Source: Tetrahymena thermophila SB210 (Eukaryota; Ciliophora; Oligohymenophorea; Hymenostomatida; Tetrahymenidae). From it: a stretch of 64,000 nucleotides of DNA. The position numbers and the translations under genes are program-made. Every line of letters begins with the position of its first letter. Position 1 is the first letter of the stretch. The notes under the pieces were generated by a model. That model was not told the DNA's origin. It worked only from the letters and a program-made list of their open reading frames with translations, and did no database searches. The stretch spans positions 64,727 to 128,726 of the forward strand of contig NW_002476569.1 of assembly GCF_000189635.1 (NCBI RefSeq), written 5' to 3'. Of this stretch, positions 4,986-62,463 are shown in pieces.

Positions 4986-5054
4986 GGACAATTTATATTG
5001 ATTTTATTTTAATAATTTAAATTCGCTTTATATAAGACGAGCACAAAATTATTT

Positions 5055-7678
5055 TCATTTAAGTTCTGGATATGAGTTATGCTTGTAGAATTATATTTCA
5101 TCATCTAAAATTTTCATAACGTTTAAGCATGTTTCCTCTTTGAAAGGAGGAGCAACAACTTAAACATTTACTGGAAGACCTTCAGTATTTTATTTCATAT
5201 AAAAATCTACTCTTTTAGCTGGTAATTCTTTTATTCTGGAATTATTGAAATGTTGTTCTTCCTTCTAAACTTTGGTTACTGGCAAAACACCTGTTGATAT
5301 TTTAGAATATTAAAAAGGAAATTAATTAATGAGTAAGTAGAAGTAAATTATATTAAATTTAATATTTTTGTTACCACAAGGGAAGTTCAAGTAGTTCCAA
5401 ATAAAAGTGTATAGACAAACGGGTGTAGAATCTAAAGAACTAGAATGAGGGAGAGCAGGTGCTCCAAATGAAGGGCAAATAATTGCTTCTATTTCATGGT
5501 CATCAAATAATCTCAAGTAATCCTATTGTAATTAACCAATTTTGTATTGTAGTTTATTTAACTCCTCAACCTGTAATCTGTTTGTTTAAGGTAACAATTC
5601 AGCAAATGATTTCTCTCCTAACATATAAAATAGCACACTGAGAAATCTTTTAATCAAAGGGGGAGTTGAAGCAAAAATATCAATCATCAAATACTCTTTT
5701 ACAGTGTCTTTTGATTCATTAAAATAAAAAAATGAATAAATACTTGATAATATATATATTTGTTAATTATAAATTAAATAAAACTGATAAAAAATTATTT
5801 AATTAAAATAATATTTTTACCTTCTTGACTCAATAAATCATAAATTCCTTAGAAGCTATCTGATAGCAAGAATTATATAAATCCATTTTTAATGGAATCA
5901 ACATCTGGCAAATCAACTTCTACTAGTTGATGGCCTTAAGCTCTAAGCTTTTCGACAGCGATTTCTACAGCTCTTTGGTTAGCGAGAGTGCAATCAAATG
6001 ACTTAAGAGTTTTAAAGTAGCCAAATCTTCTTTATTTTTTATTATTGCTTAGTTCTGTTTCGTTAATCTGCTATGTTGGGAAAAAGGGGTCTCTTTCATG
6101 TAACTTGAATTTCTATAAGTATTAAGGATCGCTCAATTATCTAAAAAATAAGATTAAATCATCAACAGATTTGCAAATAGGTCCAGATGCGCACTAATTA
6201 ATAAGTGAAAAAAAAGATTTAATATTAATTTACTACTTCTAAAATGTATGTGAAATAAGTAAATAAAGATGTCAAAAGAAACAGATTGCTTTTTACCAGA
6301 ACAGTTTTTTATCCATTGAAAGCCTTTGAATAGAAAGTATGACCAGACATAATTGTTCTTTAAGCAGTTGGCTTAAATCCATAAACACCACACATTGCTT
6401 TTTATTATTAATAAAAAATTGTAAGCACATTTAAAATTTAGGCAACTAAATAGTTTGTAGATGCAATAAGTAATTAGAGCAATCAAAATTTTTCATCAGA
6501 AATTAATTAAATTTTTTATAATGTGAGGAAAATATTATTATCAAGATTTTATAAAAAATACTTAATAAAATTGATGCGTCATAAGGAAAATAAAAAATTG
6601 ATTATTTCTTCTTTCTTTCTATATTCAAATCTTTTATAATTTTTATAGAGATTTTTTCTAAATTTTTTTTATTTACCTGCAGGAATTCTAATAGAACCGC
6701 CTATATCACTTCCCATTCCACCAGGAGACATTCTAGCTGCAACTGCAGCACCTTCTCCACCAGATGAACCTCCAGCGTATTTTGTTTTGTCCCAAGGATT
6801 TAAGACTCTTCCATAAACATCATTTACAGACTCATAAATCATAGCAGCTTAAGGAACATTTGTACGTAAAAAGGGAATAGCTCCTCCAGATTTTAAGAGC
6901 TTAACACAAAATCCATCCTCTTTAGGAATGTGATCTAGTCTAAAAATAGATCCAATTGTTGCAGGATAACCTTTTTTGGCATACAAAAATTAAATAAATT
7001 TTAAATTTATAAATAAAAATTCATCATTTTAGAAGGGTTTTTAAAATATTTTTCTTTTTAAATAATCAAATAATTTAGTATTTTTAAATATAATTTAGGT
7101 AGATTTTATTTTAAATTCAATTTAATTAGTTCCTCCTTCAAGTTTCTATTTAAAACTAATAAACTTAAAAATATATATTTATTACCTTTCTCATCAAAAG
7201 TTTCTTTCATAGAAATAGGGATACCAAATAGAGGGAGTGAGCACAATGGAGAATTTTCTTTTCTTAGTTTATCACATTCCTTTGCTGCTTCAATTGCTTC
7301 TTCATACTTTAAATGTGTAACTATTCCAAATTCTATGCCATGTTTCTACACTCTTTAAGAAAATATATTGACTAAATCCACACTTTTAACTATTTTTTCC
7401 TCAAGCATCTTTTTCAACTAAGTGATATCGCTGTTCAACACTTTATTTATAATGTCTTATGACAAATTTGGAGTGGGTATAATCAAGTTTTTTAGGTCTT
7501 AATTCCTCTTCTGAATAAATTTCCTAACTTTGCTCTTTTAAATTAAGATTTTGACTTTTTTTATAGCAGAACGCAGAATAAATGATCCAAACTTAACACC
7601 TAAACATGCTCCAATGAAGTAAGCAACATACTTCATGGAAATTTACTTTTCAAGAAAATTAGTTAAATTAAAATCCAT
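5055..7678 (-). CDS. FAAH-like amidase 1
   Basis: Amidase-signature serine hydrolase of the fatty-acid amide hydrolase type, predicted to cleave lipid amides such as N-acylethanolamines to fatty acid and amine. 609 residues in six exons: 7678-7186, 6970-6677, 6397-6297, 6193-5821, 5707-5375, 5290-5055, total 1830 nt, stop TGA. The triad is visible as Lys158 (PISMKE), Ser233 (GGSSGGEG) and Ser257 (SDIGGSIR). The spacings of 75 and 24 residues equal those of rat FAAH Lys142-Ser217-Ser241. A hydrophobic stretch near residues 17-35 could anchor the N-terminus in a membrane, as in FAAH. It is the last gene of a head-to-tail array and is closest to copies 2 and 3, whose six exons have identical lengths. 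Exact substrate unknown. Confidence 0.93.
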
Positions 7679-8645
7679 CTTTGTTTAGTCTATGATAGAG
7701 CTCCTTATAATCTAATTTATTTAAGTGAAACAAATTTTATTGATATCTTTTTTTTATTAAAAAAGTAAGAAACGATTAAGACTTTAAGCAAATCTTAAGC
7801 TGCTTATTGCATAACTTACCAATCTTAATTATCACTGATTTCGCAATTGATCAAAATACTATTGATTTAATTCAAACAGTTTACATCTAAAAACGTCAAC
7901 TTATAATTAAGAATTTATCAGTCTGTCTTAATTTTTTATTACTAAAATTTTGTAAAGAAAAATTTATGAAGATTTATTTGTTTACTTTACAACTTTACTT
8001 TGTTTGTCATTTTTTCTTTCATAATTTTATAAAATCATTAAAAGCAATTTAACGTACTTGATAAATAAAAGCTTAAATTAAATAATAAATATTCATTTTA
8101 TATCTTTTTATGGTAATAATAATTGTGTAAAAAAGCATATTTACCTTAATAAAAGCCATATTTATAACAATAAATAATAAGCTATTTAAAATAATATTTA
8201 ACAACTTAATTGTTTTATTTGTAAATTATTCTCATAATATTGATATAAATTCATTTTGCTCTTTATAATTTTAATATAGGATTTATCAAAAACTAATTAA
8301 ATCAAATAAAAAATTATATTTTAAATTTTTGGTATAAATAAATATATAGGGTTACCAGTTCAGTATTTCTAACCAAATAAATACTTTAGAAATGATATTA
8401 TTTTAAAGATTAAATCAAATAAATTTAATGACTAAAATAAATTGATAAGGAAATAGTTACTTTATTATAGATATCTATCTATATATATTTTTCTTAAATT
8501 GTGAAAATAAATAATTTTGTTTAGACATTTTTAAAAAGTTGATATCTTTAAACACATAAATGCATTACATTTAATAATATTTTTTAATATTTGTAAAGAA
8601 TATATTTATTTATCTATTGTCAATTATAGTTTAGATAATTATTTT
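7679..8645. other. Intergenic between amidases 1 and 2
   Basis: Upstream region of amidase 1 and 3' flank of amidase 2. AT-rich, no ORF with coding character, no recognisable motif. Confidence 0.6.
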
Positions 8646-11381
8646 TCATTTAAGTTCTGGATATGAGTTATGTTAGTAGAATTGAATATCATCGTCTAAC
8701 ATTTTCATTACATTCAAGCATGTTTCTTCTTTGTAAGGAGGAGCAACAACTTAAACATTTACTGGAAGACCTTCAGTATTTTACTTCATGTAATGGTCTA
8801 ATCTTTTTGTAGCCAATTCTCTTGTTCTTGAATTATTGTAATGTTGTTCTTCTTTCAAAACTTTAGTTACTGGTAAAACACCTTTTCAAAATAGTAATGA
8901 TTATTTATAAACATAATTATTTCTTTAAATCAATTAGTTAGTAGAAGTAAGTTTTTAAATAAATATTTAATTTTATATTTTACCACAAGGGAAATTCAAA
9001 AAGTTCCATATGAAGGTATAAAGACTAACAGGGGCTGAGTCAATAGAGCTAGAATGAGGAAGAGCAGGAGCACCAAATGAAGGACAGATAATTGCTTCAA
9101 TTTCATGATCATCGAACAATCTTAAATATTCAATCTATAACTTATTTATGTTATATTATAATTTATTAAGTTCTTCTACTTTAAGTCTATTGGAATTGGG
9201 TAATAGCTAAGCAAAAGTTTTTTCGCCAATTAAGTAGAATATAACTGTTAAAATTCTTTTTAAGATAACAGGTGTAGAGGCAAAAAACTCAATAGTCATA
9301 TATTCTTTCACAAAATCTATTTATAAACAAATAAAAATTAATATGTTTTGCTGTTTATTTAAAGATAAATTTCATTCTAATTTGATATAGTAGGTATATT
9401 GATTTTTATTAATTTTTAAAAAAATTAGAATTAATTTATATATTTTTCAAAAATTTAATAATAATTTATTTTATTTAAAAAAATTACCCTCTTTGCTTAA
9501 TAAATCTTTCATACACATTAACTCATCTGATAATAAGAATTAAATAAATCCATCTCTAATTTACTCTACGTTTGGTAAAGTTATTTCTACTAGTTAATGG
9601 CCTTAAGCTCTAAGCTTTTCTACTGAGATTTCTACAGCTCTTTGATTAGCAAGAGTGCAATCAAATTCTTTAAGAGTCTTAAAGTAACCAAATCTTCTTT
9701 GTTTTTAATTATTATTGAGTTAGGCTTCATCAATCTACATTAATGGAAAAAATGTGTCTATCTCTTGCAATTTAAACTTTTTTAAATATTAAGGATCACT
9801 CAACTATCTAAAGAATAAGATCAAGTCATCAACAGATTTACAAATAGGTCCAGATGCGCACTAATTAAATATATATTAGTAAAAAATTGGTTTAATAGCT
9901 AGTCATTACTTAATTATCAAAAATGTTAACTAATCATTTTAATAACATTTTAAATTAATGGTTTATTAATATTTATTTTTATTACTAAAACTGTTTTTTA
10001 TCCATTGAAAGGTTCTGAATAAAAAGTATGTCCTGACATAACGCTTCTTTAAGCAGTTGGCTTCAATCCATATACACCACACATAGCTTTTAATTAAAAT
10101 GAAAAAAAGATGTAAGTCAATCTTTATAATGTTTGTTTAATTTAATAAATTTTAAACAAAGTAACCAATTTTTTTGACTTAATTAATTAAAAAATTTTTT
10201 ATCATGCCTATTAAATCTGAAGATTACTGAGTAAATTAAGACTTAAAAATTTTTTTAAAGCAACATCAATGATAAAATAAAAACTATTTCAAATTTTATT
10301 GAATTAGCTGTTTCTAAAATAGATATTTTAATGTTCAAATATTTTCAATATATTATTTCTTGTATCTTAAGTTAATTTATTGTTATTATTATTATTATTT
10401 TAACATTTACCTGCAGGAATTCTAATAGAACCACCTATATCACTTCCCATTCCACCTGGTGACATTCTAGCAGCGACTGCAGCACCTTCTCCACCAGAAG
10501 AACCTCCTGAATATTTAGTTTTATCCCAAGGATTTAAAACTCTACCATAAACTTCATTTACAGACTCATAAATCATACCCGCTTATGGAACATTTGTACG
10601 TAAAAATGGAATTGCTCCTCCAGATTTTAAAAGCTTAGCACAAAATCCATCCTCTTTTGGAATATGATCAATTCTAAAAATAGAACCAACTGTAGAAGGA
10701 TATCCTTAAATAAAATAAATAAATTATGTAATTAAATATTTTGTTTTCAAAATAAATAGTGAGGGATTTAAATTTAATCTATTTTTTATATTTTTTAAAG
10801 TCATATTTAAAAGAAGAATAGATTTTCAATATTATTTTAAATAAAAAATAATTTCCCTCTTTTAAATATTTTATGTAATAAAAAATACCTTTTTCATCTA
10901 TTGTTTCTTTCATAGAAATAGGAATACCAAACAGAGGAAGTTAACAAAGAGGAGAATTTTCTTTTCTAAGTTTATCACATTCTTTAGCAGCTTCTATAGC
11001 TTCTTTGTACTTTAAATGAGTGATAATTCCATATTCAACTCCATATTACTAAGCTCTTTTTGAAAAAATGTTAACCAAATCCTCACTGGTTACAGATTTT
11101 GCTTCAAGCATTTTTTTCAAATGAGTAATGTCACTATTCAATACTTTGTCTATGATGTCTTAGGTCAAATTTGGAGTAGGAATTTACAAATTTTTTAAGT
11201 TTTGATTCCTCTCTTGGATAAAATTTCTCACTTTTTTCTTTTGTATAAAGATTTTGACTTTTTTTATTGCAGAACGCAGAATATAGGACCCAATTTTAAA
11301 TCCTAAATAAGCACCCATTAAGTAAGTTACATACTTAACAGGAATTTATTTTTCAAGCATATTACTTAAATCGAAATTCAT
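8646..11381 (-). CDS. FAAH-like amidase 2
   Basis: Second tandem amidase-signature hydrolase, 609 residues, probable lipid-amide hydrolase. Exons 11381-10889, 10704-10411, 10086-9986, 9860-9488, 9316-8984, 8881-8646; exon lengths 493, 294, 101, 373, 333 and 236 are the same as in copies 1 and 3. The triad Lys158, Ser233 and Ser257 is intact, and GGSSGGEG and [10 protein letters not shown] are both present. The N-terminus has a moderately hydrophobic segment ([15 protein letters not shown]) that could be membrane-associated. The C-terminal end HNSYPELK is shared with copies 1 and 3. Intron sequences are diverged while exons remain alike, so purifying selection on the protein is likely. No start ambiguity: the first ATG matches those of its sisters. 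Confidence 0.93.
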
Positions 11382-12895
11382 GTTTTTTTTTTGTTCTAAT
11401 AAATATAATTAATAATTTTTTTTAATTAATTATTTTCAAAAAGGTAATTGATTTGTTTTCTTATTTTAATCGAGTAAGTCGGGATTAAGATTTTCAGATA
11501 AATTTATTGTTAATAATTGCGTATTGTTTGTATTACTAAATAATATATACAAATGACAACTTTATTAAAATTTGCAATTATTTATATTAAACAAATTACA
11601 TTAAAAAATTTAACTTGAAATTGATTAAAGATTATATCAGTCTCAATTTTCGTTACTTAAATTCTGTAAAGGTAACAAATTAATATTTTTACTTACTCTA
11701 CTTAAGTAACTCCTAATAAAATGCTAAACAACTAAGAATCATTTTTAGTTTCTCTTTTTAAATGAAGGTATCATTTTCAATCAATACAATTTTTTAAATA
11801 TTGAATAATATTCTAACACAATTCAAATAAAACAGAATTTAAAATAATTTCTTATATCTTAAAGTAAAACATATTTTTTTTACAGTAAATTTATGGAAGT
11901 AAATAAATAAATTTATAGGAAGAATAAAAAGCTTAATTTTAATATTAAATTCTAATGGATAAATTATTTGCGTGTCTTTTAATCAATTTTTAAGAATCTA
12001 TCAAAAAAGTTTGTTTTTACAAATTTCAATTACATAAAAATTATTTAAAAAATTGACTTAGTAAATTCAATCATATTTAATCATAATGATATCTTTGATA
12101 AGTATATTAAAGTAATCTAATTTAAGTTGTATGTATTTATATTGCTAGCCTTTAAATAAATTAACACTATTTTCACTAATCACCACATTTAAAAGTAATT
12201 ATGATCTTTAAGATGTTTGTATACATATTTATCAACATTTTTTCTTTTTTAAAAATGAAATCAAAGATATTTATCATAAAATCATTCGTTTTTTATCAAA
12301 ATATTTAAAAATAAATTATTCATTAAAAATTAATATTTCAAATTTTTAGGGTTTAACTCCATCAAAAATATTTTTTTTAATTTAAAAATGCCTAATCAAG
12401 AAGAATTTGAAAAAATATTACAAAAGATGCTTTTTTTGATAAAGTTAACATTTATCTGACAGATATAGCCTGTAGCTTTGATTTCTTCCTCTTAACTTAA
12501 CTCTATGAAGGAGATTTATGTATTCTACCACATGTAGTTATAATAATAATATATATGTTAAATTAATTAATGAAATACATATTTTATATATTTATAAAAA
12601 TACAAAATTAATTATCTTATATTAAAATGTTCACCTTATTTTCTATTATTGTTAAGATCTTATTTCTGAGTGAGCTATATCCATTGATAATTGCTTGGTA
12701 GGTTTTTTTTAAAAAAAATAAAAGTGGTTTAATTTTTTTAAGAATGAAGAATTATAAAAATTGATAATAATTTAATTAAATCATTTAAAAAGCTTTTAAA
12801 AAATAAAAAATTATGTAAGACAAACTTTTATTTTAGACTAAATTAAATTATGTGTTTATTTATGTTATTTCAGCTGAAATAAATATTTTTATGAA
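11382..12895. other. Intergenic between amidases 2 and 3, with a possible frameshifted coding scrap
   Basis: Mostly AT-rich. On the plus strand an ATG at 12388 opens MPNQEEFEKILQK and stops at 12459. In the next frame the same place continues as DAFFDKVNIYLTDIA and stays open to about 12540 with raised G+C. This looks like a short coding piece with a one-base shift, but no family is recognisable and it may be chance. Confidence 0.3.
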
Positions 12896-15664
12896 TCATT
12901 TAAGCTCTGGATAAGAATTATGCTTGTAGAACTATATTTCATCATCTAACATTTTCATCACATTTAAGCAGGTCTCTTCTTTAAAAGGAGGAGCAACGAC
13001 TTAAATATTAACAGGAAGACCTTCAGTATTTTAACTCATATAAAAATCAACTCTTTTTGCAGGGAGTTCTTTATTTCTCGTATTTTTTAAGTGCTATTCA
13101 TCCTTAAGTACTTTTGTAACAGGTAAAACACCTATTTAAATCAAATAAATAATCTTAATTAAGTACAAGTTAAATTATTTTTTTATTTGCATTATTAAAA
13201 TTAAGTGTAAATATTGCATAATATTAAAATGTGATTACCGCAAGGGAAGTTGATGTAATTCCAAATATAAGTGTAAAGGCATATAGGAGTAGAATCTACA
13301 GAACTTGAGTGAGGAAGAGCAGGAGTTCCAAAAGAAGGACAAATGATAGCTTCAATTTCGTAATCATCGAATACCCTTAAATATTACTATTGCAAAACAC
13401 TAATTTGATATTACAACCTATTGAGCTCCTCTACTTTTAGTCTGTTTGTCTAAGGAAGAAGTTTTGCTGTAGATTTTTATCCTAAAAGTTTAAGTAAAAA
13501 GCTGAGAACTCTCTTAACTCCAGCAGGTGTTGAGGTAAAGAAATTTATAGGCATGTATTCCTAGATAGTATCTAATTATTTTTAATAAAAGATATTATAT
13601 TTTTATTTTAATTCATCAATAAATAAATAGCAAAAGTATATTGTATGGAATAAAATTTAGCATTTAGATAGTGAATTTTTATAAGGCCTTCAATTAGATA
13701 TTATTTGTTTTTTTGTATTTAATGCACCAAAATTAAAAAAAAATATTTCAGTACTATTTTTACCATTTGATTTCATAAAAATTAATTAGTAAATTTTTAA
13801 AATTTTAATAAAATTTATGGAAAATAATTTATTCTTTTTGTAAAAAAATAAGAGATAATTATTTTGATTGTTTTTTTAAAGTTGTAGTAAATTATATTTT
13901 AAATTCTACCTTCTTGACTTAGTAAATCATAAATGCCTTCAAAGCCATCTGCAACTAAGAATTATATAAATCCTTCACTAATTGATTCAACATTAGGCAA
14001 AGTAATTTCTACTAGTTGATGGCCTTAGGCTCTGAGCTTTTCTACTGCTATTTCAACAGCTCTTTGATTAGCAACAGTGCAATCAAATAATTCTAGAGTT
14101 TTAAAGTAACCAAATCTTCTTTGTTTCTTATTATTAGTAAGTTCAGCTTCATTAATCTATTGTAATGGGAAAAAAGGATCTTTTTCAAATAATTTAAACT
14201 TTTATAAATATTGAGGATCGCTTAACTGTCTAAAGAATAAAACTAAGTCATCAACAGATTTGCCAATAGGTCCAGTTGCACACTAGATTTATTGATAAAA
14301 ATAAATATGATACTTAATTAAAATTCAGATCATAAATAATTTTTTTTAGTTAATTAATATTTTTATCTTACAAGTACAGTTCTTTATCCATTAAACGCTT
14401 CTGAGTAGAGTGTATGTCCAGACATAATCGTTCTTTGGGCAGTTGGCTTAAATCCATATACTCCGCACATTGCTTTTAAATTAATTTGAAAAATTAATTA
14501 TTAATAATCTTCCTTAGATGCTTCAACACTCATCAAAAATTCCAAATTTAATTAATCATATCAAAAAAAAAATCAAATTATTTATTCTACTTGACAAGAA
14601 TTATTCAGAATCAAATAAAAAATCTTTCAGATCGATTGATCAATTTTACAAAAGATTTGAAGTGAATATATTAGAGAAACAATGAACAATATCTGATTAA
14701 TTTTTAAACAAAAAACTAATTTAAAATATTTACCAGCAGGAATTCTTATAGATCCACCAAGATCACTACCCATTCCACCCGGAGACATTCTAGCAGCAAC
14801 AGCTGCTCCTTCTCCTCCCGAAGAACCACCTGCGTATTTAGTTCTATCCCATGGATTTTAAACTCTTCCATAAACTTCATTAGCAGATTCAAAGAGCATT
14901 GCTGCTTATGGAACATTAGTACGCAAAAATGGAATTGCACCACCTGATTTTAAAAGCTTAACACAGAAGCCATCTTCTTCAGAAATGCGGTTTATTCTAA
15001 AAGAAGATCCTACAGTTGAAGGATAACCTTTAAAAAAGAAAAAATTATTAACACAAAAAATTGAAGTAATAAGAAAAGTAAATAAATATCTTCATATGAA
15101 AACAACAAGTTTTTGTAAATTAAATTATTGTTTTTAGAAGAAATTTATTTTTGTAAGCAATAAATAAATACCTTTTTCTTCAAATGTTTCTTTCATAGAA
15201 ATGGGGATACCAAACAAAGGAAGTTAACAAAGAGGGGAATTTTCTTATCTAAGTCTATCACATTCCTTTGCTGCTTCAATAGCTTCATCATACTTTAAAT
15301 GTGTTATAATTCCATATTGGACTCCATATTGCTATACTCTTTTTGAATAAATGTTGACTAAATCTACACTAGTTACTGTTTTTGCTTCAAGCAATTTTTT
15401 CAAATTAGTAATATCACTATCTAATACTAATCTTATGACCTCTTCAGATAAATTTGGAGTAGGAATTTTTAAATTTTAGAGATTAGCATCTCTCTGTTAA
15501 ATAAATTCTCTAACCTTCTTCTTTTAAATTAATATTCTAACCTTTTTAACAATAGATCTCAAAATGCTTGAGGTCATTTTTAAACCCAAGTATGCTCCGA
15601 CAGCATAAGCAGGATACTTCAGAGAAATTTGCTTTTCAAATAGTCTTCTAATTTATATCTCCAT
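12896..15664 (-). CDS. FAAH-like amidase 3
   Basis: Third tandem amidase, 609 residues, same six-exon plan: 15664-15172, 15027-14734, 14472-14372, 14282-13910, 13571-13239, 13131-12896. The catalytic triad lies in the same places as in copies 1 and 2: Lys158 in PISMKE, Ser233 in GGSSGGEG, Ser257 in [11 protein letters not shown]. The N-terminal extension [12 protein letters not shown] precedes a weak hydrophobic segment. Differences from copies 1 and 2 are scattered substitutions, with no frameshift or premature TGA in any exon. It belongs to the closely related subgroup 1-3 at the left end of the array. Role inferred as intracellular membrane-associated lipid-amide hydrolysis. Confidence 0.93.
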
Positions 15665-16756
15665 TACTTTTTTTTGCCTTACTAATAAATAATTGAAATT
15701 TTTTAATTATTTTCAGTTTATTTAAAATGGGTTTATTTTTCTTTTAATATTTAAAGATTAAAAATGATATAAAGAATATTCTTTTCTATAACATTATAAG
15801 TTAATTACGTAATGTTTATTTGTTAGTATGTCATTCATTATAATCAAATTTATATTTCTTTCAGAATCTTTTTAATCTTATTTTATTTTTTTATGTATTT
15901 GTTTGAGCTTCCAATTTTAAAAACGTCAATTTCATTTAGAATTTACTCGCTTAACTATTATACAAAAGACAGCTTTAATATTTTTTCATTTTTTTTTAAA
16001 TTAAATATTTTTCATGATATCAAATAGATAGTAATCAAATTAATTTTTTGTGTCATCTTTCTTAAAATAATAAATAAATAGATCCATATCTTATTTTTAA
16101 TTTCAATATACCAAAGCTTTTATTATTTTGTTTCTCTCTGATTATCAAAAAGGTAGTGTTAAATTTGGGACTAAAAGTTTGTAAATTACTAAATTTTAAA
16201 ATCTTGTTTCACCATATATCAATAGATGTTATAGTAAATAAATATTTAAATAATGAAATATTTCTTAAAAAATATTTCAAGTATAAATATCATAATAAAA
16301 TTTATGGAGCTATAAAATAGGAATAATTTTTAACATGTAAAAATACTTTCATTTTCTAAAATTATTATTTTTTAATTGACTTGCTTAATTTATCAATAAA
16401 TTCATTCTAATAAAAATGTATTAAAAGGGTTATTGACTAGTTTAACTTTGATTAATTTTAAACCAAAAAAGAAATAGGTTTTTATTTCTTTTTCCATTTA
16501 TTTATTTGCTTGCTTTTCGTTCTGTTTTTTATTCTAAATTAACGCTTTGTTTAAGGTAAAAATTTTCCTTTATCAAACACTTTTAGATGCTTCATCAATC
16601 GATGACGAAATTATAAAGTGACGATTTTTTTAATGTTTCAATTTACTTTTTAATTTAATTTAACTATGACTTACATAAATTGATACACGAATTACGATTT
16701 AAAATTTAAGAGTTTTTTTTGATAAAATAATTATATAAAAATTAAAAAATATTCAA
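15665..16756. other. Intergenic between amidases 3 and 4
   Basis: AT-rich spacer; no coding stretch or repeat of note on either strand. Confidence 0.6.
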
Positions 16757-55200: not shown

Positions 55201-58200
55201 ATGAGTGTTAAGTAAACAAAGAAAGAAATAGCTAACCTAGTGGTTAATTGTCGCTCTTAAAAAATCAGTATTAAGAAGTTTTTCGATTTAATGAAGGTTT
55301 AACAAAAGCATTACACTGACTTCTCCTATTCAGGAAATGGTGCGTTTTCATTTGTGCTAAAATCAACCAACAAAAAGACAGGTTAAATCGTAGCTCTCAA
55401 AGTGACTGAATGCAATGATAACGAAATAAATGGTATGAAGGAGATTGAAGAAGAATATAGACTGCTTAGATAATTTTCTAACTGTAAGTACATCGTTTAG
55501 GTATTTAATTGTTTCTTTTTAACTGAAGAAGAAAGTTCAGATGAAGATAGCAGTAATGATGAAGAAGAAGAAGGAAAAAAAAATGTTCAAAAGAGTATCA
55601 AATAACAAAAAAACCAAAAAAATCTGTTCTTTGTTGTTGAGCAAGAGTTCTGTTAAAGTAAATAATTTTCTCCACTATTATTGTTTTAAGAGTTGCATCG
55701 AACTTTAAGAGTAGATTTAGTAAAGCAACGCTTTAATTTTGCTGCTTTTTGTTGATTTTGATTTTGATAAGACTTTATTTGAAGATTTTCTTTTGATTTT
55801 GATCATTTTAATCAAAATTAATTTAAAACAAAGAGAGTTAATACAATATTCTAATTAAAAAACTTGAGACTTCTTATATCTTTCTTTGATAATTTGATTT
55901 TTCCATTTTCTTATTTCACCATTTTAATAGAAGTGAATATTGATTGATTGGTATATTTTAATAATAATTGATTGTTCCATTTATTTATCAAAATAATTAA
56001 TATTTATATCATTCATATTGCTTGATTTCTCATATTTTATTAATAAAAAATTTTAATCAAATTTACTTTGATATTCCTTTTATTTATTCACTTTATTAGC
56101 CTTAGACTCTAAGAATTCATTCATTAGGTATTCATTTTTTATTATTTTCAATATTTATTTTTTTTTATTTTTAAAACTAATAAATTTATGGAACAATTTT
56201 TATTAAACAAATCAATCATTTTTCTTTTTAATCTATTATTTGATTAAATCTTTTTTTGTAAAATCTTTATTCAATTACATAAATTTAATGATACAAAAAA
56301 TTAAAAGTTTTGAGAAAGGAATAAACTAAGCAGTTATTTTCACTTTTTTACAACCTTAAATTTATAAAAGGATTAGACTTCGCCTTCTAAAAAAAATATT
56401 ATTTAAAAGCTTAAAATACTGCTAGTCATGAAATAAAAATATGCCAACTATGTAGACAGGTACAGATAGCGATATTCCATTAAATAATTTTTATGATTTT
56501 AAGTTAATTTTTTTATTCTATATTTTTATAGTTTTTATCAAAACTTTAACAAATTTTTGGTATCATTTAATTGATAAATTTTCTCAAATTTTTATGCATT
56601 TAACTTGCATTAATATATTTTTTAAAAATTTCCAAAATTTTATAATAGTTACTTTCATTTTAATCAATTCTCTTAAAAATTATTGAGTCATCACATATAT
56701 TATTTTAATTAATTTTAAAAAAAATAACAATCTTCCAATATATCAAACCACACCTAAATCTACTCATTAGATGTTAATCAAAATATTTTTTTATAGAAAG
56801 GGTAACTAAAATTTCTACCAATTTCATTTTATTTTATCAAAAATAGCAAATTTGGAAAATTTCTTCACTCAATGCAGATTAAAAAAATCTTACCCATGCT
56901 AACAATAGAAAGAAGTTATGACAATTTAAATGCTTGATTCTATAGCCTATCTTCACAGATTTGATTTACTTCATAGGGATATCAAACCATCAAATTTTCT
57001 TCTTTCATTAGATGAGAAGGAAATTCCTACTGTCAAGATATGTAATCAAAAAAATAAATAAATAAACCAACAATTAATTCTTCTATTTTAATGATTTCTT
57101 TGATTTTTTTATTTGAACCTTAAAATAAAATGAAATGATTTTTAATAATTAAAGAGAATCAGATTAAATAAATTAGTTTATTAGTTATTAAATCTTCTAA
57201 TTATTAATATTCAATTTTAAATCTTTTAAATAACTAAAATAAATTGAAAACTCATCATTTTTAAACACGAATTAAATACTTTTGATAATCTAAGCATCTT
57301 TTATCTAAACTATAATTCAAGCGAATTGTATTTTAATTAAAAAAAATTAAGACTTTTTATAGCGTTTACCTAAATTATTTCATCCAAATTGAAAAAAATA
57401 TATAAATAAATAGAAGATAAAAAATGTTTAAATAATTCAACTTAATAAATTTAATTTATTTTGAATATAAAATAAAAATTAGGTGATTTGTCTTTTGCTT
57501 CTGCTCTTAAGAACAATAAATCCATAATTACAGTTTCTAAAATTGTAACTTAAACTTACAATAAACATTTAATTTAACTTTAGTCTAATAAAATACTAAA
57601 AGAAAGGAACTTAAGCTTATTTTGCTCCAGAAGTAGAAAAAGGCATTTACAAAAAAGGGGTATATTAAATATTATAAATAATTTAAACAAAAATATTTTA
57701 TTTAAAAAAAAAATTATAGTCAGACATTTTCTCATTAGGACTAGTTTTGTTAGAGTTAGATAATATGTCAACTTTTAACTTTAATGACACTACAAATGAA
57801 GATAAACTAGAAATTAAATTTGCTAAGATTTTCCCTAATTATTAGATTGACAGACAATCATATATCTATAAGATAGCTAACTAATGTCTAAATTACTCTG
57901 TAGAAAATCGAAAATAGGCCATAGATTTACTCATTCAGTTCATATAAGAAAACTAAAAATACTTAGCAGTTGAACTTTCTTCTGTAATTAACAGAGTAAA
58001 TATTTTTATTTTGGTCACTTAATTTATGAAAAAATTTATAAATGTAATTTTAGTCTTAATTGTAGTAGAAATCAGAGCAACTAAGCTAAATTCAAAAAAC
58101 TATTATAGAAAAGTAATAGAAAATGAAGAGTGAAATCTTAGAACTCTCTTAATCATCCAAAGTAAATCAATAATTTAATATAAGGATATTTTTAATTCAT

Positions 58201-61200
58201 ATTTATAATTTTAAAATGAATAGAATCAAAAACATTTCAAAAATTTAATCTAAATGTTTGATGTGCTTCAGTAAAAACCTTTTAAGGCATAAGAATTTGA
58301 AACTATTCTAAAGTTACTTTAGAGTATTCCTAAATATGATAGCAATTTTGAATTCATTTCTGTAGGTGCGAAAGGTTTGGTCCTTGGAACTTTTAACAAA
58401 ACTTTAGGAATTAAAACAGTTTTAAAGATTCAATAAGTTCAATCTAAGCATGAAGTTGTTCAAGAAGTTGGAATCATGAGAGATTGCTAAATGCCTCTTG
58501 TCATTAAGTTTTATGGATATTTCTACTTGTCAGTCAATAAAAAAGATGATTTTGTAGTTTATGAGATAGAGAAATGTTCTGGTAATACTTAAAAAATAAA
58601 TAAACTTATTATCACTCATTTTGTTTTGATTATGTGAAATTTTAATTTATAATTTATTATTTAAAGGTAACTTAAAATAGTATTTGACAAGACTTCAAAA
58701 AGAAAATATTGTGCTTACTGATAATCAAAAAATGCAAATTGCTGTATAGATTATTGATGTTGTAAATTATCTAAATTATAATGGAATTGTTCACAGAGAT
58801 ATCAAATTAGATAACATTCTCTATATTGAAAGTTAATCTGATGTTCCTACAATTAAATTAAGTATTTTATTTTACTAATTTAGTTTTCATTTCTATAAAT
58901 AAATATTTATAATTCTCAATTCATTTTAAATTAGCCGATTTTGATTAATCTAGAAAGGTGCCTTATGAATTGTATTATAGAGATGATGAATTAGTTAAAG
59001 ACTACTTTCCAGTATAAGGAATTGTAAATTTTTTAGATTAAAAATAAATTTATAACTTAATTTAAAAAAAGAGTGGCACATTAGGGTATATAGCACCAGA
59101 ATTTTTCTAAAACATTTTTTACACTTTTGAGGTAATATATTTTCAATAAAACATTTAACTTTAATCTACTTACAATTCATTTAATTATTTCTTTCTTTAT
59201 TTGTAGTGTGAAATATTCTCAGTTGGAGTTTGTCTTGCTCTATTAGATAATTTTGAGAAACTAGAACCTGTTATTTTAAAAAAAGCACAAGATTACTTTT
59301 TTGGATTCAAAATACCTTTTGAATAAAATTTTAATGTAAAAGAAGAATTAATAAACAGAAAGAGTTAGATTTATGACATCCTACTACAAACTGTTGTATT
59401 TCAACCAAAGTAAAGGAAACCCTTATCTTAGATACTCCTTAACTTTTAAAAACATGGATATTATTATTATTCTCAAATTTTTTCTCAAATTTCAACTGTA
59501 ATTTTTCATTCAATTTTAACTCTTTTATTATTCATTCATTCTTTTTAAACTCAGGTCACTTCAGATCTTAAATATTTGAAAATACTTTCTCTTGATAACA
59601 AGTAAATTTTAATTATTCTATTCAATTTATTTAATCCTCAATACTTTTTAAATTCATTTTTTTTATTATTTTGGTTTTAATATTTTTAAATTATTTATTA
59701 AACAAGAAATTAAAAATTACTTAAAGGTGATGCTAGAAAAATCGCTTCCGAAATAGCTAAATGTCCTACTCTCTCTACTTTAAGCCTTTACCTCTAGTAA
59801 TTTTTTACACATTTTCTCAATTTATAGTTTAAATAAATAATTAAAGAAATCAAATAATAACAAACAATATTTAATTAATTAAGTATTTTGTTCATTTTAA
59901 TTAAGTAACAACAACATAGGCTCAGATGGGGCGAAAGCAGTTGCTTCCGAAATAGCTAAATGTCCTACTCTTTCCACTTTAAGCCTTGACCTTAGGTAAT
60001 TTTTTACACATTTTCTCAATTTATAGTTTAAATAAATAATTAAAGAAATCAAAGAATAACAAACAATATTTAATTAATTAAGTATTTTTGTTCATTTTAA
60101 TTAGGTCTAACAACATAGGCTCAGATGGGGCGAAAGCAGTTGCTTCCGTAATAGCTAAATGTCCTACTCTCTCCACTTTAAGCCTTAAAATCTCGTAATT
60201 TTTTACACATTTTCTCAATTTATAGTTTAAATAAATAATTAAAGAAATCAAATAATAACAAACAATATTTAATTAATTAAGTATTTTTGTTCATTTTAAT
60301 TAGGGGTAATAGTATAGGCTCAGATGTGGCGAAAGCAATTGCTTCCGAAATAGCTAAATGTCCTACTCTCTCCACTTTAAGCCTTGACCTTGGGTAATTT
60401 TTTACACATTTTCTCAATTTATAGTTTAAATAAATAATTAAAGAAATCAAAGAATAACAAACAATATTTAATTAATTAAGTATTTTTGTTCATTTTAATT
60501 AGGTCTAACAACATAGGCTCAGATGGGGCGAAAGCAGTTGCTTCCGAAATAGCTAAATGTCCTACTCTCTCCACTTTAAGCCTTTACCTCTAGTAATTTT
60601 TTAAACATTTTCTCAATTTATAGTTTAAATAAATAATTAAAGAAATCAAAGAATAACAAACAATATTTAATTAATTAAGTATTTTTATTCATTTTAATTA
60701 GTAAAAACAAAATAGGCTCAGATGGGGTGAAAGCAATTGCTTCCGAAATAGCTAAATGTCCTACTCTCTCCACTTTAAGCCTTGACCTTGGGTAATTTTT
60801 TACACATTTTCTCAATTTATAGTTTAAATAAATAACTAAAGAAATCAAAGAATAACAAACAATATTTAATTAATTAAGTATTTTTGTTCATTTTAATTAG
60901 GGATAATAGTATAGGCTCATATGGGGCGAAAGTATTTGCTTCCGAAATAGCTAAATGTCCTACTCTCTCCAGTTTAAGCCTTTACCTTGGGTAATTTTTT
61001 ACACATTTTCTCAATTTATAGTTTAAATAAATAATTAAAGAAATCAAAGAATAACAAACAATATTTAATTAATTAAGTATTTTTGTTCATTTTAATTAGG
61101 AAAAATAGTATAGGTCCAGATGGGGCGAAAGCAGTTGCTTCCGAAATAGCTAAATGTCCTACTCTCTCCACTTTAAGCCTTGACCTCTAGTAATTTTTTA

Positions 61201-61546
61201 CACATTTTCTCAATTTATAGTTTAAATAAATAATTAAAGAAATCAAAGAATAACAAACAATATTTAATTAATTAAGTATTTTTGTTCATTTTAATTAGGT
61301 GGAATAGAATAGGTTCAGATGGGGCGAAAGCAGTTGCTTCCGAAATAGCTAAATGTCCTACTCTTTAAGATTTAAGGATTGATTTAAGGTATTTTATATT
61401 TGAATATAAAAATTAAAAGCTCAAGGAATAATAATATATAAAAAGTAATAAATAATATTAAAATAAATAGGAGTAATTAAATAAATGGGGATGTTTAGTT
61501 TATGAATCTTTTACCAAAAGATATTTATTTAAAAGTTAAACATTGA
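55201..61546 (+). CDS. Tandem protein kinase with C-terminal LRR exon array
   Basis: Predicted 1042-residue protein, 21 exons: 55201-55657, 56847-57041, 57483-57544, 57603-57659, 57720-57995, 58054-58161, 58224-58581, 58667-58861, 58935-59131, 59207-59497, 59555-59601, nine 90-nt exons starting 59707, 59906, 60105, 60304, 60503, 60702, 60901, 61100 and 61299, then 61471-61546. All phases join (3129 nt). Kinase 1: glycine loop GNGAFSFV (45-52), Lys67, HRDIKPSN (195-202), YFAPE, but DFG is DLS (219-221). Then a coiled-coil linker. Kinase 2: loop VGAKGLVLG (432-440), Lys453, HRDIKLDN (547-554), DFD (571-573), GYIAPE (620-625). LRRs from about 735 to the end. No signal peptide or membrane helix. 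HRD and Lys are kept in both domains, so activity is possible but atypical. A further 60-nt in-frame intron near 59013 cannot be excluded. Confidence 0.82.
59707..61388 (+). repeat. 199-bp exon-intron tandem array encoding LRRs
   Basis: Nine exons of exactly 90 nt are separated by eight introns of exactly 109 nt (exon starts step by 199 bp; the first exon is diverged at its 5' end). Introns are near-identical, from gtaattttttacacatttt to tgttcattttaattag. The exon core (AKCPTLSTLSL) is also near-identical. Differences cluster on both sides of each intron: the residues after SL are D, Y or K, then the split codon gives R, Y, S, G or Q, then S, N, G, K, D or W before N and IG. These lie at the end of the LRR beta-strand. 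The array implies very recent unit duplication or ongoing homogenisation. Confidence 0.93.
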
Positions 61547-61971
61547 AATTGAGTAGCTTTTGATAGATTAATAGAAAATAGATAATTTGTAAAATAATAT
61601 TTAAAGTTTATGCTAAGATATTTTTTTACACGGTTCTTTTATTTTGAATAATTTTATGTTTAGTTAATTGAATTAAGATTGTGAGAAATATAAAATAAAA
61701 ATAACAATTTTTAAAAATTAATTAGGATTTCAAAAAATAATTTTTCAACAATTAAAATTTATGAACATACTTATCTATTACTATTAATTAAATTGATAAA
61801 TTTTTTTTAATAAAAAAATTAAATTAATATTTTAAATAGAAACCCTTAAATATCATGATTTAAGTAAAAATTTATTGTTTTAAATTAAAATTTTTTTTTT
61901 CACCAAATATTGGTAATATTTCATAGGAAATACTGTATCTTTATTATATAATAAAAACATTTTTTTAATAA
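61547..61971. other. 3' flank of the kinase-LRR gene
   Basis: AT-rich, no further LRR exon or other coding segment seen. Confidence 0.6.
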
Positions 61972-62463
61972 TATAATAAATATGGCTTATTATTACTGAA
62001 AGTCTTAATTACATTTTTTTAAATTTAATATAAAATATTGATAATATTATACTTATCTCAATCAACTTTATTATTAATTTATTAATTTGAGATTAAATTT
62101 AAATTGATTATTTTATAATTAATTAATACTTATTTATTTCTACATTAACTTTTTTATTGATAAAATAATTTAATATTTTAATTTGTTTATTAAGTTGTAT
62201 GTATGTATATCTATATAATATAATAAATATGACTTATTGGACGAAAGTCTTAATTAAATTTTTTTAAATTTAATATAAAATATTAATAATATTATACTTA
62301 TCTCAATCAACTTTATCATTAATTTATTAATTTGAGATTAAATTTAAATTGATTATTTTATAATTAATTAATTCTCATTTATTTCTACATTAACTTTTTT
62401 ATTGATAAAATAATTTAATATTTTAATTTGTTTATTATTTTGTATGTATGTATATCTATAATT
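61972..62463. repeat. Tandem duplication, unit about 246 bp
   Basis: Two adjacent copies (about 61972-62217 and 62218-62463) share long identical blocks such as tcaatcaactttat, gagattaaatttaaattgat and ctacattaacttttttattg in the same order. One copy reads atggcttattattactgaaa where the other reads atgacttattggacgaaa. Non-coding. Confidence 0.85.

Follow-up and report, generated by a model that had tools for sequence, protein, structure and literature searches.

Leucine-rich repeat (LRR) genes of Tetrahymena that are assembled from 90-bp exons, in near-copy units of exon plus intron, were described in 2019 (Xiong et al., PMC6564038). As the main text of that paper presents them, these genes have tandem 90-nt exons separated by phase-2 introns, near-identical units with a characteristic intron length, a number of units that varies between paralogs, and leucine at exon positions 66, 75, 81 and 87, and some are fused to a kinase. 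The same text proposes unequal crossing-over, suggests a role in sensing bacteria and reports purifying selection for most 90-bp-exon LRR genes; diversity at exposed codons is not treated in it, and its sequence logos may show variable positions. Searches of open literature, which mostly leaves aside subscription papers and preprints, gave this one paper on 90-bp-exon genes, no title on the exposed-codon diversity of these genes, and no paper combining the terms tandem kinase, leucine-rich repeat and ciliate. A second system of interest is formed by the fungal HNWD/NWD WD40 genes of Podospora, in which repeats are homogenised within and between loci and vary in number (PMC1805685, PMC2873952). 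The proteins are described there as NACHT-WD40, without a kinase and without LRRs, and four interface codons per repeat are diverse, with 55 combinations among 69 repeats and strong positive selection by dN/dS (PMC1805685).

Here we show that a gene in the window, by which we mean the whole stretch of 64,000 nucleotides of Tetrahymena thermophila SB210 DNA that was analysed, is a member of the published Tetrahymena 90-bp-exon LRR kind. Its nine 90-nt exons, one per repeat, start every 199 nt (59707 + 199k, k = 0 to 8, the last at 61299) and all begin in phase 2, and the eight introns between them are without exception GT...AG, phase 2 and exactly 109 nt long. The initial annotation had read this near-identical exon-intron module correctly, with the provisos that the 5' half of unit 1 is diverged and that the 90-nt length of unit 9 is deduced from a donor-like GT at 61389, beyond which the frame also continues; no exon downstream of that GT was identified. 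Tandem Repeats Finder reports a period of 199, 8.1 copies and 93% matches at 59744-61364. Intron 1 keeps its 109 nt through two compensating 1-nt indels, which is why the window array introns differ by 0.0288 when compared ungapped and by 0.0132 when aligned. Pfam LRR_6 matches the array (E 1.1e-26). Among solved structures, 33 distinct PDB sequences match it with E of 0.001 or less, the best with 2.2e-18, and its repeats resemble those of the ribonuclease-inhibitor type. A whole-genome search with the LRR_6 family gave 2 matches and recovered no array of the present set, an uninformative outcome for a short model that is scored per exon. Some 600 bp past the array, at 61968-62460, a 245-bp AT-rich unit occurs twice with 95% matching.

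Table 1. Features of the kinase-LRR gene, in window coordinates
Feature	Position	Strand	Basis and remarks
KD1, first kinase domain	55201..57995	+	In-frame GT-AG model without stops; Pfam Pkinase; blocks conserved when the three tandem paralogs are aligned
KD1 exons	55201-55657, 56847-57041, 57483-57544, 57603-57659, 57720-57995	+	GT-AG splice model
Linker exon joining KD1 and KD2	58066..58161	+	GT-AG splice model
KD2, second kinase domain	58224..59497	+	Splice model; Pfam Pkinase
KD2 exons	58224-58581, 58667-58861, 58935-59023, 59072-59131, 59207-59497	+	Splice model
Short exon opening the LRR region	59555..59601	+	Splice model; VTSDLKYLKILSLDN; ends in phase 2
Intron ahead of the array	59602..59706	+	Intron comparison; 105 nt, not of the array type
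Unit 1, 90-nt exon	59707..59796	+	Diverged 5' half (NQKLLKGDARKI); common to three tandem genes; fixed cap
Eight 109-nt phase-2 introns (59797 + 199k, k = 0 to 7) and seven 90-nt exons (59906 + 199k, k = 0 to 6)	59797..61298	+	Tandem Repeats Finder; splice model
Unit 9, last LRR unit	61299..61388	+	Fixed end LQDLRIDL, common to three tandem genes
Example of a diversified block	59988..60114	+	Last 8 nt of unit 2 (59988-59995), 109-nt intron, first 10 nt of unit 3 (60105-60114); codons x5, x7, x8, x10

Ahead of the array, an ATG at 55201 opens a model, built from the sequence, of 21 exons that splice in frame into 997 residues without a stop (Table 1). Both kinase domains are matched by Pfam Pkinase (E 3.3e-32 for KD1 and 1.2e-28 for KD2), in agreement with the earlier description of the gene as a tandem kinase. 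A gene start at 57765 was rejected because the reading frame continues upstream into KD1. KD1 carries VALK, HRD and, where DFG is the usual kinase motif, DLS; KD2 carries HRDIKLDN and, in the same place, DFD. The KD2 intron at 59024-59071 is 48 nt long, a multiple of three, and reading through it is also possible. In the coding sequence between 57765 and 59601, 18 TAA and 9 TAG codons are read as Gln, which points to the ciliate code. CCCCAA repeats, a telomere pattern, stand at both termini of contig C4; the reversed control gives the same pattern and only the position at the contig ends is informative. The assembly is taken to be a macronuclear genome, which the code and these repeats make probable. 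The first intron of the kinase gene (55658-56846, 1189 nt) is much longer than the rest and has large indels between the three tandem paralogs.

The initial annotation had called the product an LRR receptor-like kinase. This was rejected, since the kinases lie N-terminal to the LRRs and simple hydropathy over the predicted protein revealed no signal peptide or membrane helix (the maximum for a 19-residue window is 1.78, within KD2, and the best window among the first 40 residues reaches 0.38). At E up to 0.001 the Pfam matches of the predicted protein are to kinase families, LRR_6 and LRR_4 (the last under its cut-off), and neither NACHT nor WD40 is matched; a short match to Tas3_C-hel within a repeat scores 27.2 bits against a cut-off of 27. 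The product is likely to be a soluble protein in which two kinase domains precede LRRs that offer a variable binding surface, and it differs from the Podospora proteins in combining kinases with LRRs. Plant tandem kinase proteins have two fused kinase domains, and LRR receptor-like kinases combine a kinase with LRRs. Compared with these, the order here is kinase-kinase-LRR, without a membrane helix and in a ciliate, and homology is not claimed.

The window gene is one of three tandem genes on the same contig (C11), which have 9 (window gene), 6 and 7 units. All three have the diverged first unit and the fixed last unit in common, and their interior units vary. Among the 16 interior units leucine occupies exon positions 66, 75 and 81 in all cases and position 87 in 15; position 48 is always isoleucine, and position 36 is valine in 12, isoleucine in 3 and phenylalanine in 1, hydrophobic but not leucine. 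At these two further positions of the pattern in PMC6564038, 36 and 48, the window gene has valine and isoleucine, and its introns of 109 nt (mostly 107 or 115 nt in other clusters) differ from the lengths of about 257 or 122 nt given for T. thermophila in that paper.

Sequence difference is distributed unevenly along the three genes. Over the 1.5 kb ahead of 57765, which covers KD1 exons and introns, they differ by 10-11%, and in the eight introns between 57996 and 59706, on the KD2 side, by 3.7-6.3% (hand-pooled). Comparison of introns with exons between units, one of the checks that the initial annotation had proposed, gave 1.2% for aligned array introns and 2.4% for exon positions 17-76, both taken within and between the three genes, against 0.68-0.70 of comparisons at the exposed residues discussed below. 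The introns had been held to be as conserved as the coding core; conserved they are, but more strongly than the core. Alignment-based intron differences throughout this work ignore gaps. Three further observations concern this contig. Unit 1 of the middle tandem paralog (L009:8282-8371, C11:136282) has one base more than both neighbours, and the resulting frameshift marks either a pseudogene or an error in the sequence. At window 5047-15715 (C11:69773-80441) a stretch is present in three tandem copies, pieces of which are 69-77% alike. Downstream of the three kinase-LRR genes (L012, C11:159067-166296) another tandem duplication has two copies, each of about 3.6 kb, that are 86% alike.

Within this one genome (101 Mb, 445 contigs) the analysis covered 14 more arrays on six further contigs, with intron lengths mostly of 107 or 115 nt. 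The intron-start sequence gave 130 matches genome-wide at up to 3 mismatches and 0 in the reversed control. In front of 12 of the 14 arrays stands a related kinase, with nothing in between, and the remaining 2 reach the contig end first. In four loci (L015:3396-3602, L018:4017-4223, L023:8028-8207 and L026:2736-2993) the main kinase match is preceded by weak ones of 29-37% identity, which suggest that other kinase-LRR genes may also have a first kinase domain. On contig C160, one locus (L027) has a single unit without AG/GT; other matches lie on C160 and C115.

An alternative explanation is an assembly artefact, with collapsed or chimaeric units. Contigs C75 and C12 do stop at their right ends (L018 and L015) within one array, with an exact 978-bp overlap in opposite orientation, which is an unjoined assembly break where the assembler failed, and C119 likewise ends within an array. 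Against this, the window array lies within a contig of 622,914 bases, all nine of its exons differ, and the layout recurs in both tandem paralogs with different words at the exon ends, so that we regard an artefact as very improbable.

Of the 157 units found, the 118 interior ones that have AG/GT at both ends entered the exon statistics (pN/pS, four-codon shares and word counts). Five C12 units that duplicate C75 are counted in these statistics, in the codon tallies and in the tests across 16 arrays; they were removed for the comparison of block with core silent sites and for the analysis of shared 5-mers, which used 114 interior units. The unit at the C119 end, whose exon is cut by the contig end, was excluded, and C119:14431 (4 units) and the diverged unit at C119:19134 have too few interior units for the per-array table. 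Within-array divergence for the label C330 5 pools two arrays, which the codon tally also treats as one label.

Similarity between loci is far greater for the arrays than for the genes that carry them. In the two kinase exons compared, the window gene and its 12 paralogs outside C11 are separated by a silent divergence (pS) of 0.53-0.87, whereas the array introns of C11 differ on average by 3.7% from the 115-nt type and by 10.1% from the 107-nt type. With kinase silent sites near saturation and array introns only some 4-10% apart, the comparison supports the homogenisation of intron and core and indicates that arrays have probably been exchanged between loci. Strong constraint is a poor explanation of intron identity, because a 19-unit array (G000:C119:27954-31276, L024) keeps AG/GT in 19 of 19 units with introns of 50-107 nt that differ by 20% (intron p 0.20). 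We take it to show what an array looks like once homogenisation has ceased. Across 16 arrays, with the overlapping ends of C75 and C12 counted twice, intron divergence is correlated with core residue divergence (Spearman 0.67, p 0.004) and not with exposed divergence (Spearman 0.13, p 0.63).

The usual LRR pattern is LxLxxNxI, and it is also visible in the alignments with the PDB matches. From this consensus four codons, x5, x7 (split by the intron), x8 and x10, are predicted to belong to the concave strand and the loop, where they would be exposed. It is here that the array diverges. The initial annotation had placed the residue changes at the codons flanking the introns, and four codons indeed hold 52% of the residue differences in the window alone (7 interior units), where this set ranks second and is one of only 2 among 27,405 four-codon sets to reach that share. 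For the 16 interior units of the three C11 genes the share is 63%, the best of 27,405 sets, and for the 115-nt and 107-nt types it is 55% (rank 3) and 36% (rank 7). Exposed residues differ to the extent given above in each of three clusters (C11 and the 107-nt and 115-nt types), core residues in 0.06-0.19 of comparisons, and introns of modal length at 0.0158, 0.0803 and 0.0070 of sites. We counted 89 distinct four-codon combinations among 129 junctions, diversity comparable to that of the Podospora codons, with the interface here being predicted from the LRR consensus. The boundary is abrupt: diversity is 0.53-0.66 at the last two exon bases and 0.000 over the first 10 intron bases (C11 and 115-nt types). 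Such a switch would seem to need very frequent short exchanges or another local process.

Could the arrays simply have expanded too recently for their introns to diverge, the junction differences reflecting relaxed constraint on surface residues? The absence of any intron substitution in 4 of 16 arrays (length differences ignored) is what this would predict, but exposed residues in those same arrays still differ in 0.38-0.62 of comparisons. Relaxed constraint cannot exceed the neutral rate, and at the exposed codons of C11 pN is 0.50 against an intron p of 0.016, about 30 times the intron rate. Strongly constrained introns would rescue the argument, but the 19-unit array with its variable introns argues otherwise. 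In 13 of 15 arrays, moreover, silent sites are more diverse inside the block than fourfold sites are in the core (Wilcoxon p 0.001, arrays not being independent), and we consider this explanation improbable. Slightly less probable still is that identical introns came to lie between older exons through recent mass insertion or through replacement at the level of introns, either introner-like or, following the published intron length cycle, connected with REP. The sharp exon/intron boundary in diversity would fit such a process, and LRR introns are tied to REP retrotransposons in PMC6564038; insertion would not, however, homogenise the exon core, where fourfold sites differ by only 0.018-0.019 in two clusters.

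Silent sites within the block are themselves diverse. At codons 86 and 5 the silent bases differ by 0.49, 0.46 and 0.34 in the three clusters, compared with 0.019, 0.203 and 0.018 at core fourfold sites (0.203 being the 107-nt type, the most mixed). For this reason local pN/pS at the exposed codons stays near 1: the three clusters give 1.04, 0.82 and 0.66, and the 7 units of the window taken by themselves give 1.34. The dN/dS check at the junction codons that the initial annotation had put forward thus yields a range of 0.66-1.34, and the usual signature of positive selection is weak or lacking, in contrast to the four Podospora codons. Local dN/dS misleads here, and the intron rate together with the core silent rate is the better yardstick.

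Raised silent and replacement diversity inside the block, bounded abruptly by the splice sites, is also what targeted local hypermutation at exon ends would produce, with words made afresh after a recent expansion of identical units and no old pool. Most words are indeed confined to a single cluster (at the 3' end 53 of 58, at the 5' end 44 of 46, with the 978-bp contig overlap counted twice). However, some words and 5-mers, with the same silent bases and unusual codons, are common to loci whose kinase silent divergence is near saturation. All three clusters have the 5-mers CTTGG and CTCTA, silent base included, at positions 86-90, and the linkage of the silent base of codon 86 to positions 89-90 was reached by 0 of 2000 shuffles per cluster. 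For serine at x5, 5 array labels have TCG and 1 has TCA, while TCG accounts for 0 of 29 serine codons in the coding sequence 57765-59601; tyrosine at x5 is TAC, an unusual codon shared between loci. Linkage of a 3' word to the next 5' word across the intron is weak or absent within clusters (P 0.29, 0.034 and 0.044), pooling being confounded by cluster. The shared 5-mers, the linkage of silent to replacement bases and the shared unusual codons favour old words over a raised local mutation rate, and exposed diversity does not track intron divergence, our proxy for array age. We therefore judge hypermutation unlikely, and old shared words seem to have been kept while their surroundings were homogenised.

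The reading that we prefer, to which we give a probability of about 0.7, is that the window gene is a 90-bp-exon LRR gene of the Tetrahymena type (group III sensu Xiong et al.), that its array, joined to two kinase domains, is homogenised by exchange, and that selection keeps four codons per repeat diverse from a pool of old words. According to this model, the unit of a 90-nt exon and an intron of about 109 nt would be a substrate for unequal crossing-over and gene conversion, which would act inside the gene as well as among genes of different contigs. Intron and core, as the sites of this exchange, would be rendered nearly identical; the exchange would also alter the number of units and spread sequence through the family. 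Selection would oppose homogenisation at four codons per repeat, so that variants keeping or renewing the exposed codons are retained. The material kept would be a pool of old short words rather than fresh mutations, covering about 8-14 nt at the 3' end of the exon and 10 nt at the 5' end, silent sites included, and parts of these words would recur at different loci. The proposal in the initial annotation of unequal crossing-over or gene conversion with diversifying selection fares well in its observable parts, namely the variation in unit number, the homogenisation, the exchange between loci and the diversity on the predicted binding face; that recombination is the mechanism and selection the force we infer from these.

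It is possible, and we offer it more tentatively, that the family constitutes a ciliate repertoire of soluble tandem-kinase LRR sensors. Ectopic exchange would then homogenise exon-intron units across a dispersed family, and old words of about 8-14 nt, split by introns, would be shuffled and selected. The family would be a unicellular counterpart of the fungal WD40 recognition genes, with the intron acting as a homology arm inside the binding site. A role in recognition, whether of self, prey or pathogen, is suggested by the likeness to Podospora NWD genes and by the proposal made in PMC6564038, and binding by the repeats and signalling by the kinases may be parts of it.

The gene type itself is known, and what is added to the main text of PMC6564038 is the diversity of four exposed codons together with diverse silent sites within the same block. 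Four named residues per repeat escape homogenisation, and ordinary dN/dS hides the signal. The published guess of bacteria recognition thereby becomes testable, since these four residues are the ones that should decide binding. If the reading is correct, a free-living cell would use the evolutionary design of fungal recognition genes, coupled to two kinase domains.
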